64,000 nt of DNA from Ascochyta rabiei (lineage: Eukaryota; Ascomycota; Dothideomycetes; Pleosporales; Didymellaceae): NCBI RefSeq assembly GCF_004011695.2, contig NC_082424.1, positions 434,001-498,000 on the forward strand, read 5' to 3'. A model generated the notes under the pieces. It ran no database searches. It was not told where the DNA came from and saw only the letters and a program-made list of their open reading frames with translations. Both the position numbers and the translations under genes were made by a program. Shown here one piece after another: positions 6,974 through 9,423 of this stretch; position 1 is the stretch's first letter; each line of letters starts with the position of its first letter.

Positions 6974-7306
6974 TAGGACAGGCTAGTAGAAAGAATGTGT
7001 GTTGCAAGAGGTCCTGTAGACAGGCAGGTTTCTGTGAGCTATTCAATAGAAACCAATATTTGAGAACGATGATCCAACCAGACTTCGCAACTTGGCTTAT
7101 GGCGTTCGTGTCGGCGCAGAAATTCGTCTTCCACCGTGCTATTGTGCTTCGAGCCCCTCCTTGCCCCGCACTTGACAGAATATTTGCAGCATCACCGACT
7201 CCAACAAGCTCTCACATCCACGAAGACGATAAAACTCGGCAGATGGTTTTGCGAATTACGATATAAGTTTTTGTTTTTTGACACTTATCATAGCACCAAC
7301 GAACAT
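6974..7306. other. Aldolase 3' region and tRNA 5' flank
   Basis: No gene is seen in these 333 bp. A T-rich tract (about 7264-7280) lies shortly before the tRNA start. Confidence 0.4.
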
Positions 7307-7442
7307 GGTTTTGTAGTGTACGTTCTTCCCTGATCAATTCAATCCGATCAACCACTAATCCCTAACAGGTAGCGGTTATCACTCCGGATTCTGATCACCT
7401 CAGTATCTTCCGGCAACCCCGGTTCGATTCCGGGCAAGACCT
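7307..7442 (+). tRNA. tRNA-Gln (anticodon CUG) carrying two intervening sequences
   Basis: Read with both insertions removed, the gene gives a 72-nt cloverleaf. The acceptor stem is GGTTTTG (7307-7313) pairing with CAAGACC (7435-7441), with a single T.G wobble. The D-arm is GTG/CAC; its loop TAGCGGTTA lies downstream of the first insertion. The anticodon stem is CCGGA/TCCGG (7384-7388 and 7409-7413) around TTCTGAT with anticodon CTG at 7391-7393. The T-arm is CCCGG/CCGGG with loop TTCGATT. Box B GGTTCGATTCC is intact, and a Pol III T-run terminator follows at 7444-7450. The second insertion, 7395-7407 (13 nt), starts one base after the anticodon, the canonical nuclear tRNA intron position. 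The first, 7318-7368 (51 nt), lies in the D-arm and splits box A; it is listed separately. The gene may be functional or a disrupted pseudogene. Confidence 0.75.
7318..7368 (+). other. Spliceosomal-like 51-nt intervening sequence inside the tRNA-Gln D-arm
   Basis: The insert starts GTACGT, contains a branch-like CACTAATC (7353-7360) and ends AACAG, so it has all the signals of a fungal mRNA intron. Its 51-nt length equals introns 1 and 3 of the biotin carboxylase gene 2.5 kb away. The triplet GTA is present at both borders (7318-7320 and 7369-7371), so it could equally be an insertion with a 3-bp target duplication. Removing it restores a contiguous D-arm (GTGTAGCGGTTATCAC) and an 11-of-11 box A match (TAGTGTAGCGG). 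Confidence 0.65.
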
Positions 7443-7443
7443 C

Positions 7444-7450
7444 TTTTTTT
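7444..7450 (+). terminator. RNA polymerase III terminator of tRNA-Gln
   Basis: A run of seven T residues begins two bases after the discriminator base of the tRNA, as expected for a Pol III terminator. Confidence 0.7.
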
Positions 7451-7613: not shown

Positions 7614-9423
7614 CTATGTGAACAACGGATTTAGCTTCCCAGCAACTCTCTCCATGACCCTCTGCGGCAACAGACTCTCATACACATGGTCCACCCACTC
7701 ACAGCACGCCCTCCTTGTGTACGCTGGATCGATAATCTCTTCAATGCCAAAAGCATTCGCCGTTCTTACAGGGTTCATTAGCCGTTTGTACTCGTCCTCC
7801 AACTCCTTGTACCTCTCGTCTCTCTTCTCTTTCCCCTCTCTCCGCTCAATCTCCTTGAGCTCAAATGAGTGTCCGACCTCAATACCGCCCTCGAGTGGCA
7901 ACGACCCCCAGAGACCAGACGGCCACGCAACGCGCATCCTCGGATCACGACAGTCCAGCATGATGCCGCCCGCTACGCCGTACACGCGGCGCACAACGAC
8001 GCTGAAGATGGGCATCGTGGTAGCGTAGTACGTCGTTGCGAGCGAAATACCGTGGCGCATGGTCGCCGTGCGCTCTGCTACGGTCCCGATGGCGTACCCC
8101 GGTATATCGACAAATTGAATCAGGGGAATGTTGAACACGTCCAGGAACTTCAGCATGCGCGTTCTCTTTTGGCTCCCGAGGGCATCGAGCGCTCCGGCAT
8201 TGACTTCGCAGTTTAGAGATACGATACCGACTGGTCTCCCGTCGAACCGGGCCAGCCCGACGATGGCGGTCGTGCCCCATAGTGCACCGATTTCGAAGAA
8301 CGAGGAGCTGTCGACAACAGAGATTATGATGGTGCGGGGGTTGTACATCCTGTTTTTTGCCCGCGGTATGACGGTACGGAGGTTCTCGCAGACGCGATCG
8401 ATGGGGTCTGAGCATTTGATGGTTGGCGGTAGTTGAGTGCCAATGTTGGGTAGGTAGCTGAGTACGGTACGCAGCTGTTCAAAACATCCTGCTTCATCTG
8501 GGGCGAGATTATCGATGGTACCGTTGGTGCAGTGCATGGCTGGCCCGCCTAGATCGGTGAATGATAATCCTTCTTCGAATGTTGCGTTGGCCACGACGCT
8601 GGGTCCTGCGTTGAAAAGAGAGCCGATGTCTGCAGCCATGACTGAGAAGTGACAGGCGACCACTCTTGCGGCTCCGAGACCGATAGCTGGACCTACAACG
8701 GCGCCCAGGTTGGAGATTCCCAGATTCAACTGCTGCACAACTTGGGAGAAGGAAGGCAGTGGAGGCACGTAGGAAAAGCCAGTCGAGCGAATCGTAGTCA
8801 CAGAGCCACCGCCGGAAGATCCATCGACAAGCTTGACAATCGGCAACTTGAGAGCTATTGCGAGCTTCTCCATGTATATCTGAAGTTGTATCAGCACACT
8901 GTGAAAGAGTGGGTGTCGCTGTACTCACCGTCTTCTCCATCAACGCTCCATCAGCATGTCCAGCTCTGATTGAAAAATCGTCTGCCGTGAAAACTACCTT
9001 TCTCCCTCTCAATTTTCCAAACCCCTGGACGTTGTTCGAGGGCACATACTCAACCGGCTCTTCCTTACTCGGTCCCGTCTGCCTCCACTTGACTGTCCCA
9101 CTTACGCTGCCCACCTCCTGAAAGCTTCCTGCATCGAGCAACTGCTCAACTCTCTCCCGGACCCACAGCTTGCCTGCCTGCTTTTGCCGTACATAACCCC
9201 TGTTCTTCGGGTCCGGTGTTGCAGCGATCTTGCGTAGAGCGGTGATTTGACCCAGGATATCTGAGTAGTCGGCAGGTAGGTCTGAGTCTGCTCCTTTCCG
9301 ACGTCTGCGCTTGGGTGTGTTGGGTGTGATGTGCGCGCTGACTTGCGCGAGACGGTCGGTTGCTGTTGTGGAGGGCGTTGACGCGTCCTTGGGCGTAGAC
9401 GGGGGTTGTTTGTCACCGGCCAT
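7614..9423 (-). CDS. Acyl-CoA carboxylase, carboxyltransferase (beta) subunit
   Basis: This is a 586-aa biotin-dependent carboxyltransferase of the propionyl-/methylcrotonyl-CoA carboxylase beta type. It moves CO2 from carboxybiotin to an acyl-CoA. Exons are 8929-9423 and 7614-8879, separated by a 49-bp GT-AG intron. The splice yields the family block MEKTIYMEKLAIALK, followed by KLVDGSSGGG (acyl-CoA oxyanion-hole region). A second crotonase-like half contains FVDIPGYAIGT and YGVAGGIM. The C-terminus has the charged helix and the RRACCEWVDHVYE segment. The N-terminus is Pro/Thr/Lys-rich, with a basic KRRRRK patch and no typical mitochondrial presequence, so cytosolic action is possible. The gene is divergent from the biotin carboxylase/BCCP gene across a 454-bp promoter, strongly suggesting that the two products form one enzyme. 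The acyl substrate cannot be decided. Confidence 0.88.

Follow-up and report, generated by a model that had tools for sequence, protein, structure and literature searches.

The window, a stretch of 64,000 nucleotides from Ascochyta rabiei, contains a tRNA-Gln(CUG) gene that is divided into three exons (Table 1). Two interruptions of different kinds separate these exons: an insert with the signals of an mRNA intron lies in the D-arm, and an ordinary tRNA intron lies between nucleotides 37 and 38. The joined exons amount to 72 nt. The splitting of the gene by an insert carrying GTACGT, CTAAT, and CAG had been proposed from the sequence alone, and its coordinates hold when checked letter by letter. 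The same applies to the 3-bp GTA at both borders of the insert, which permits the cut to slide by 3 nt. ARAGORN recognizes the gene exclusively in its insert-free form, where it calls a tRNA-Gln(ctg) with a 13-nt intron; this agrees with the earlier claim that a 72-nt tRNA-Gln(CUG) is left once both interruptions are taken out. The unspliced gene of the window is recognized as a tRNA neither by ARAGORN nor by Rfam at the gathering score. The case for this anatomy is very strong.

Table 1. Features of the tRNA-Gln(CUG) locus, introns of protein genes in the window, and further loci of the genome referred to in the text.
Feature	Location	Positions	Strand	Remark
tRNA-Gln(CUG) gene	window	7307-7442	+	three exons; checked letter by letter
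TATA-like element TATAAG	window	7262-7267	+	45 nt 5′ of the tRNA; from sequence
Exon 1, GGTTTTGTAGT	window	7307-7317	+	acceptor 5′ strand through nt 11; identical in four Gln(CUG) genes
mRNA-type GT-AG intron in the D-arm	window	7318-7368	+	51 nt; homologous inserts in 4/4 Gln(CUG) genes
5′ splice site GTACGT	window	7318-7323	+	from sequence
Block TTCTTCCCTGATCAATTC	window	7323-7340	+	common to four Gln(CUG) inserts with 0-2 mismatches
Branch site CTAAT	window	7355-7359	+	adenosine 10 nt from insert end
3′ splice site CAG	window	7366-7368	+	from sequence
Exon 2	window	7369-7394	+	remaining D-arm, anticodon stem/loop to nt 37; anticodon CTG at 7391-7393
Ordinary 37/38 tRNA intron	window	7395-7407	+	13 nt; sequence and ARAGORN on the insert-free gene
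Exon 3	window	7408-7442	+	anticodon stem 3′ strand, variable loop, T-arm, acceptor 3′ strand; from sequence
Box B GGTTCGATTCC	window	7421-7431	+	intact; from sequence
Seven-T run	window	7444-7450	+	Pol III terminator; from sequence
mRNA intron of a protein gene	window	8880-8928	-	49 nt; GTGAGT..CTGAT..CAG, read by eye
mRNA intron of a protein gene	window	10314	+	49 nt
mRNA intron of a protein gene	window	37274	+	50 nt
U6 gene, continuous	C14, L063	1501-1600		
U6 gene, first insert	C9, L064	1540-1605		66 nt; GTATGT..CAG
U6 gene, second insert	C9, L064	1643-1695		53 nt; GTGAGT..CAG
tRNA-Leu(CAA) gene	C9, L168	1676400-1676660		four exons
Asp-like tRNA	C11, L172	1337260-1337500		short extra stretch in the T-arm

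Querying the genome with the DNA of the joined tRNA locates four tRNA-Gln(CUG) genes, situated on contigs C1, C7, C14, and C20, and a pattern spanning the anticodon to the T-arm likewise leads to four places on these same contigs. All four genes are interrupted after the same eleven nucleotides. The inserts of C20 and C14 are 51 nt long and contain GTACGT, CTAAT, and CAG, that of C1 measures 59 nt (GTACGT, CTAAT, TAG), and that of C7 measures 58 nt (GTACGT, CTGAC, TAG). Herein, the mature exons are identical in 72/72 letters, and the joined genes differ at a single position, located within the 37/38 intron of C7. The flanks of the four loci are unrelated. The inserts are 73–96% identical, and the diverged ones keep the 5′ splice site, the branch site, and the AG end. 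Membership of the 51-nt insert in an introner-like family, as had been considered, finds no backing: the 18-nt block occurs only at the four Gln genes and, with two mismatches, at two further places, equal in number to those of the reversed control (2), and no large set of near-identical copies of the Gln insert in unrelated genes was seen.

Intact tRNA-Gln copies elsewhere in the genome, which the sequence-only reading had named, combined with the lack of a joined transcript, as an observation that would speak against it, were not found at the DNA level: among the genes read from the Rfam tRNA, DNA, and pattern searches, there is no uninterrupted nuclear tRNA-Gln. A pattern of the unbroken Gln D-arm matches 34 places of the genome with one or two mismatches and none exactly, these counts referring to bare pattern matches. 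The mitochondrial contig carries its own Gln tRNA; a mitochondrial tRNA of this type should not serve the cytosol. As far as the DNA goes, the reading of 7318–7368 as an mRNA-type intron is supported, and the gene of the window represents one case of a wider pattern.

This pattern extends across the genome (40.9 Mb, 23 contigs), which was searched with the Rfam tRNA model and with T-arm patterns, the T-arms then being paired with acceptor strands. The Rfam model gave at least 61 matches, with 63 of 1588 candidates scored. Since this census is incomplete, uninterrupted copies may have escaped it, and tRNAs with other T-loops are possibly absent, there being no nuclear Phe or Trp gene among those read. 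At least 35 inserts were identified, distributed over at least 28 nuclear tRNA genes of 16 contigs, seven of these genes containing two inserts each. Another 82 nuclear tRNA genes (70 + 12) are uninterrupted; 28/110 of the genes read are, thus, interrupted. The interrupted genes comprise those of Gln (four with anticodon CTG, one with TTG), Pro (four AGG, three TGG, two CGG), His (three), Cys (two), Ser(GCT) (three), Ala(CGC) (two), Leu (one each of TAG, CAG, and CAA), and Met (one). For several anticodons, every synonymous gene read carries such inserts. When the exons are joined, ARAGORN calls a tRNA in 28/28 cases and the expected isotype in 25/28, as opposed to any call at all in just 4/28 unspliced precursors. 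The same tRNA exons were found neither in viral contigs nor in prokaryote genomes, as expected for a fungus. One protein encoded in the window shares 87% identity with a protein of Didymella pomorum and at most 79% with those of other named Pleosporales among the matches listed, which points to Didymellaceae or close kin.

The inserts occupy the D-arm, the region near position 26, the anticodon itself, the variable arm, and the T-arm. Within the D-arm, they follow nt 10 in Ser(GCT), Leu(TAG), and Leu(CAG), nt 11 in Gln, Pro(AGG), His, and one Pro(TGG) gene of C9 (C9a), nt 15 in Cys, Leu(CAA), the Ala gene of C3, and the Pro(CGG) gene of C12, nt 18 in the other Pro(TGG) gene of C9 (C9b), and nt 19 in Met. 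Sites at nt 23–26 are used in Pro and Ala genes. Both Pro(CGG) genes (L080, L148) are cut between the first and second letters of the anticodon, a Leu(TAG) gene (L093) is cut in the variable arm, and the Leu(CAA) gene (L168) is cut within box B, at the point where the T-stem meets the T-loop. The latter gene consists of four exons, with GT-AG introns in the D-loop and in box B and a 49-nt 37/38 intron. Such sites bear on the notion that the insert is simply retained, giving a tRNA with a long D-loop. In the Gln genes, the GTA repeat does let the first letters of the D-stem pair in the unspliced RNA too, but inserts in the anticodon, the variable arm, and the T-arm would hardly be tolerable in a working tRNA, and uninterrupted twins of the Leu(CAG) and Met genes exist; the probability of retention is practically negligible.

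Two further structures may be described here. Directly upstream of the Pro(CGG) gene at L148, on the minus strand, another tRNA-like gene is represented by a T-arm and the 3′ strand of an acceptor, which end 3 nt short of the Pro(CGG) gene. The Asp-like tRNA sequence of C11, perhaps a decayed gene, has a short extra stretch in its T-arm and is devoid of GT-AG signals.

Empty sites reveal what the genes look like in uninterrupted form. The Leu(CAG) gene of C12 becomes identical with the uninterrupted Leu(CAG) gene of C4 in 81/81 letters upon removal of its 55-nt insert, and the Met gene of C17 without its insert matches the Met gene of C10 in 105/106 letters, the mismatch being situated within the 37/38 intron. 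In addition, L155 is the empty counterpart of the first site of L147, L148 that of the first site of L080, and L066 and L071 are empty at the second site of L069 and L082; L078 and L167 exhibit mutually empty sites. The four Pro(AGG) copies, once joined, are identical in 86/86 letters, whereas their first introns agree in only 65–83%. Mature exons are, thus, identical in Gln(CUG) and Pro(AGG) while the introns drift, and the relaxed exons typical of pseudogenes were not observed in either.

These data have to be set against the view that the insertions killed their genes, leaving tRNA pseudogenes, and that the functional tRNAs come from uninterrupted genes that have escaped notice. According to PMC4090602, eukaryotic tRNA genes with insertions in the D-arm are, as a rule, supposed to be pseudogenes, the Asp-like gene of this genome has a decayed appearance, and the incompleteness of the census leaves room for further copies. 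In Gln(CUG) and Pro(AGG), however, the mature exons stay identical as the introns drift, and decay would not preserve the GT, CTRAY, and AG signals; this view would also require all genes read for Gln, Pro, His, and Cys to be dead. A simple gene-killing insertion, which the sequence-only reading had kept as its alternative, is extremely unlikely, given that 28 tRNA genes spread over 16 contigs, among them all those read for four amino acids, contain this type of insert.

All 35 inserts begin with GT, with GTAAGT in 18, and 33/35 end with AG (CAG in 24, TAG in eight, and AAG in one). A CTRAY motif with its adenosine 10–12 nt from the insert end is found in 33/35; the second insert of Pro(CGG) C12 and the insert of Met contain ATAAC and TTAAC instead. 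Insert length ranges from 48 to 68 nt with a median of 52 (n = 35). With the cut borders given, the combination of GT, CTRAY at 9–14 nt from the end, and YAG is present in 30/35 inserts versus 4/105,000 shuffles. The two ends other than AG (CTG and CAT) belong to two of the three Pro(UGG) genes, C8 and C9a, and are set by tRNA structure. In these genes (L078 and L079, on C8 and C9), the inserts share the same site and have a normal GTAAGT and CTAAC despite their ends, which are possibly unusual 3′ splice sites or signs of decaying genes.

For comparison, introns of protein genes were inferred by joining open frames, which yielded 22 introns versus two in reversed sequence. Since this set was picked by the same motifs, only length and branch distance are independent comparisons. 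The median length is 55.5 nt (47–90) in the inferred mRNA introns versus 52 nt in the inserts (Mann–Whitney p = 0.21), and the median branch distance is 12 versus 11. The earlier statement that the insert equals neighboring mRNA introns in length holds for genes of the window (49, 49, and 50 nt) but not for all other inferred introns, which are longer and reach up to 90 nt. The host gene of the intron at 8880–8928 presumably encodes a protein resembling the methylcrotonyl-CoA carboxylase beta subunit. Ordinary 37/38 introns have a median length of 15 nt, and GT..AG occurs in 0/51 of them (51 genes). In GT/AG ends, branch site distance, length, and the restoration of a functional RNA upon removal, the inserts correspond to U2-type spliceosomal introns.

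The insert borders were set manually, guided by uninterrupted paralogs and tRNA structure, with the GT-AG idea already in mind, which is a weakness of these counts; the bias spares the Leu(CAG) and Met inserts, which have empty-site twins, and the two Pro(UGG) inserts with their structure-forced non-AG ends. An automatic excision scan by a crude cloverleaf score was rejected, as many products tied and the cuts were unreliable. For the Gln genes, the top product of this score is a near neighbor of the GT-AG cut and not the cut itself.

To our knowledge, GT, CTRAY, and AG at fixed spacing play no role in cutting by the tRNA endonuclease. This matters for the proposal that the inserts are extra tRNA-type introns at noncanonical sites, cut by that enzyme at a bulge-helix-bulge motif, as in nucleomorphs or Cyanidioschyzon. 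The endonuclease does meet the same RNA, many interrupted genes also having a 37/38 intron, and PMC4090602 describes noncanonical introns throughout the tRNA body, sometimes several per gene, in nucleomorphs, red algae, and Crenarchaeota. In their many positions and occasional multiplicity, the inserts are similar to these; the introns described there, however, rely on a bulge-helix-bulge or are very short, as opposed to the mRNA-type signals and 48–68 nt of the inserts. At least three of the four pairs of the central helix can form at 10/33 insert sites, a control that is only moderately sharp because ordinary 37/38 introns show the helix in just 27/51 cases. A full bulge-helix-bulge is present at 0/35 insert sites (random placements, 4/6588), and 0/35 inserts are located at position 37/38. 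Together with a set of spaced signals that would be irrelevant to the endonuclease, this makes endonuclease-type introns very unlikely. Ordinary eukaryotic 37/38 introns, which are cut by the endonuclease (PMC4090602) and are present in the same genes, including that of the window, differ from the inserts by being shorter, by their position, and by having neither GT-AG nor a branch site.

A precedent for the inserts is found in the U6 genes of this genome. The Rfam U6 search gave two genes, of which the C14 copy is continuous and the C9 copy contains two inserts; without both, the C9 copy equals the C14 copy across 101 nt. Introns of the mRNA type are known in fungal U6 genes, including those of Schizosaccharomyces pombe and others, and the spliceosome can therefore act on a Pol III RNA. 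Like the inserts, they are short GT-AG introns in the Pol III gene of an essential RNA. Unlike them, the inserts reside in many tRNA genes, whose boxes A and B are internal and whose RNA is also handled by a second splicing system. Rogers et al. reportedly described mRNA-type introns in fungal nuclear rRNA genes in 1993. These are likewise GT-AG introns in a noncoding RNA gene of fungi, but rRNA is a Pol I transcript and a large host RNA. What is unusual is not the look of the introns themselves but the genes that host them and the double processing. Judged from anatomy, copies, and conservation, the insert of the window is very probably a spliceosomal intron, its host being a live Pol III tRNA gene, and belongs to a set of at least 35 such introns spread across 28 nuclear tRNA genes.

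Transcription of a gene with a divided box A requires a look at the promoter, using the consensus TRGYNNARNGG. Joined genes (27 tested) and uninterrupted genes (66) match seven or eight of the eight specified positions, as opposed to only four to six in 22/27 interrupted precursors. For inserts after nt 11, GTAAG provides A14 and R15 of box A. In Leu(CAA), with its divided box B, the G preceding TTCGA comes from the AAG that ends the insert. TATA-like elements are present upstream of 18/27 interrupted and 42/66 uninterrupted nuclear tRNA genes, and T-runs follow 25/27 and 62/66, respectively. The TATA-like element of the window is ordinary for this genome because such elements are similarly common in uninterrupted genes; for the same reason, the idea that it specifically makes up for the divided box A was discarded. 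The flanks of interrupted genes look like those of live Pol III genes, and residual boxes, TATA-like elements, and T-runs may sustain transcription. A further motif, ATCAA, occurs in the 30 nt upstream of nuclear tRNA genes (16/27 interrupted, 21/66 uninterrupted) and is perhaps a start-site signal.

From this arrangement, we infer the following pathway. Pol III would transcribe the gene via box B and the residual box A, perhaps aided by the TATA-like element in front of the gene. The spliceosome would then recognize GTANGY, CTRAY, and YAG and excise the 48–68-nt intron, as suggested by the anatomy and by the U6 precedent. The full cloverleaf would form only after this excision, whereupon RNase P, the tRNA endonuclease acting on the 37/38 intron, and the ligase could follow. 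The endonuclease subunit Sen54 contacts the D-arm, as stated in PMC4090602; hence, a D-arm insert should have to go before the 37/38 intron. Precursors lacking the D-arm insert and retaining the 37/38 intron would, thus, be expected, with few of the reverse kind.

For four amino acids, all genes read are interrupted: 5/5 for Gln, 9/9 for Pro, 3/3 for His, and 2/2 for Cys, with no uninterrupted nuclear gene among them. A search for unbroken Pro and His D-arms with at most one mismatch gave three places, each in a gene that is interrupted further on. The dedicated D-arm searches were confined to Pro/His and Gln, and copies with unusual T-arms were possibly missed. With all the genes read being interrupted, decoding of Gln, Pro, His, and Cys in the cytosol would rely on mRNA splicing. 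It is likely, in our judgment, that 28 of the 110 nuclear tRNA genes read, or around a quarter, give transcripts that are matured by the spliceosome first and by the tRNA endonuclease second. These genes include all those read for the four amino acids, and some of their introns are located within the anticodon or even within box B. Translation capacity would in this way depend directly on mRNA splicing.

Introns of nuclear tRNAs are generally assigned to an endonuclease and a ligase of their own. The spliceosome is seen as acting on Pol II transcripts, U6 and some rRNA genes being the rare exceptions. An earlier report of spliceosomal introns in tRNA genes was not found in the open-licence PMC literature. 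In A. rabiei, the spliceosome appears to be necessary for a large number of essential tRNAs. This bears on how the spliceosome recognizes substrates without a cap or a Pol II tail, on how introns enter noncoding genes, on how a Pol III promoter can cope with the division of box A or B, and on why isoacceptors of some fungi may escape tRNA finders. If true, translation in this fungus would be tied to splicing.
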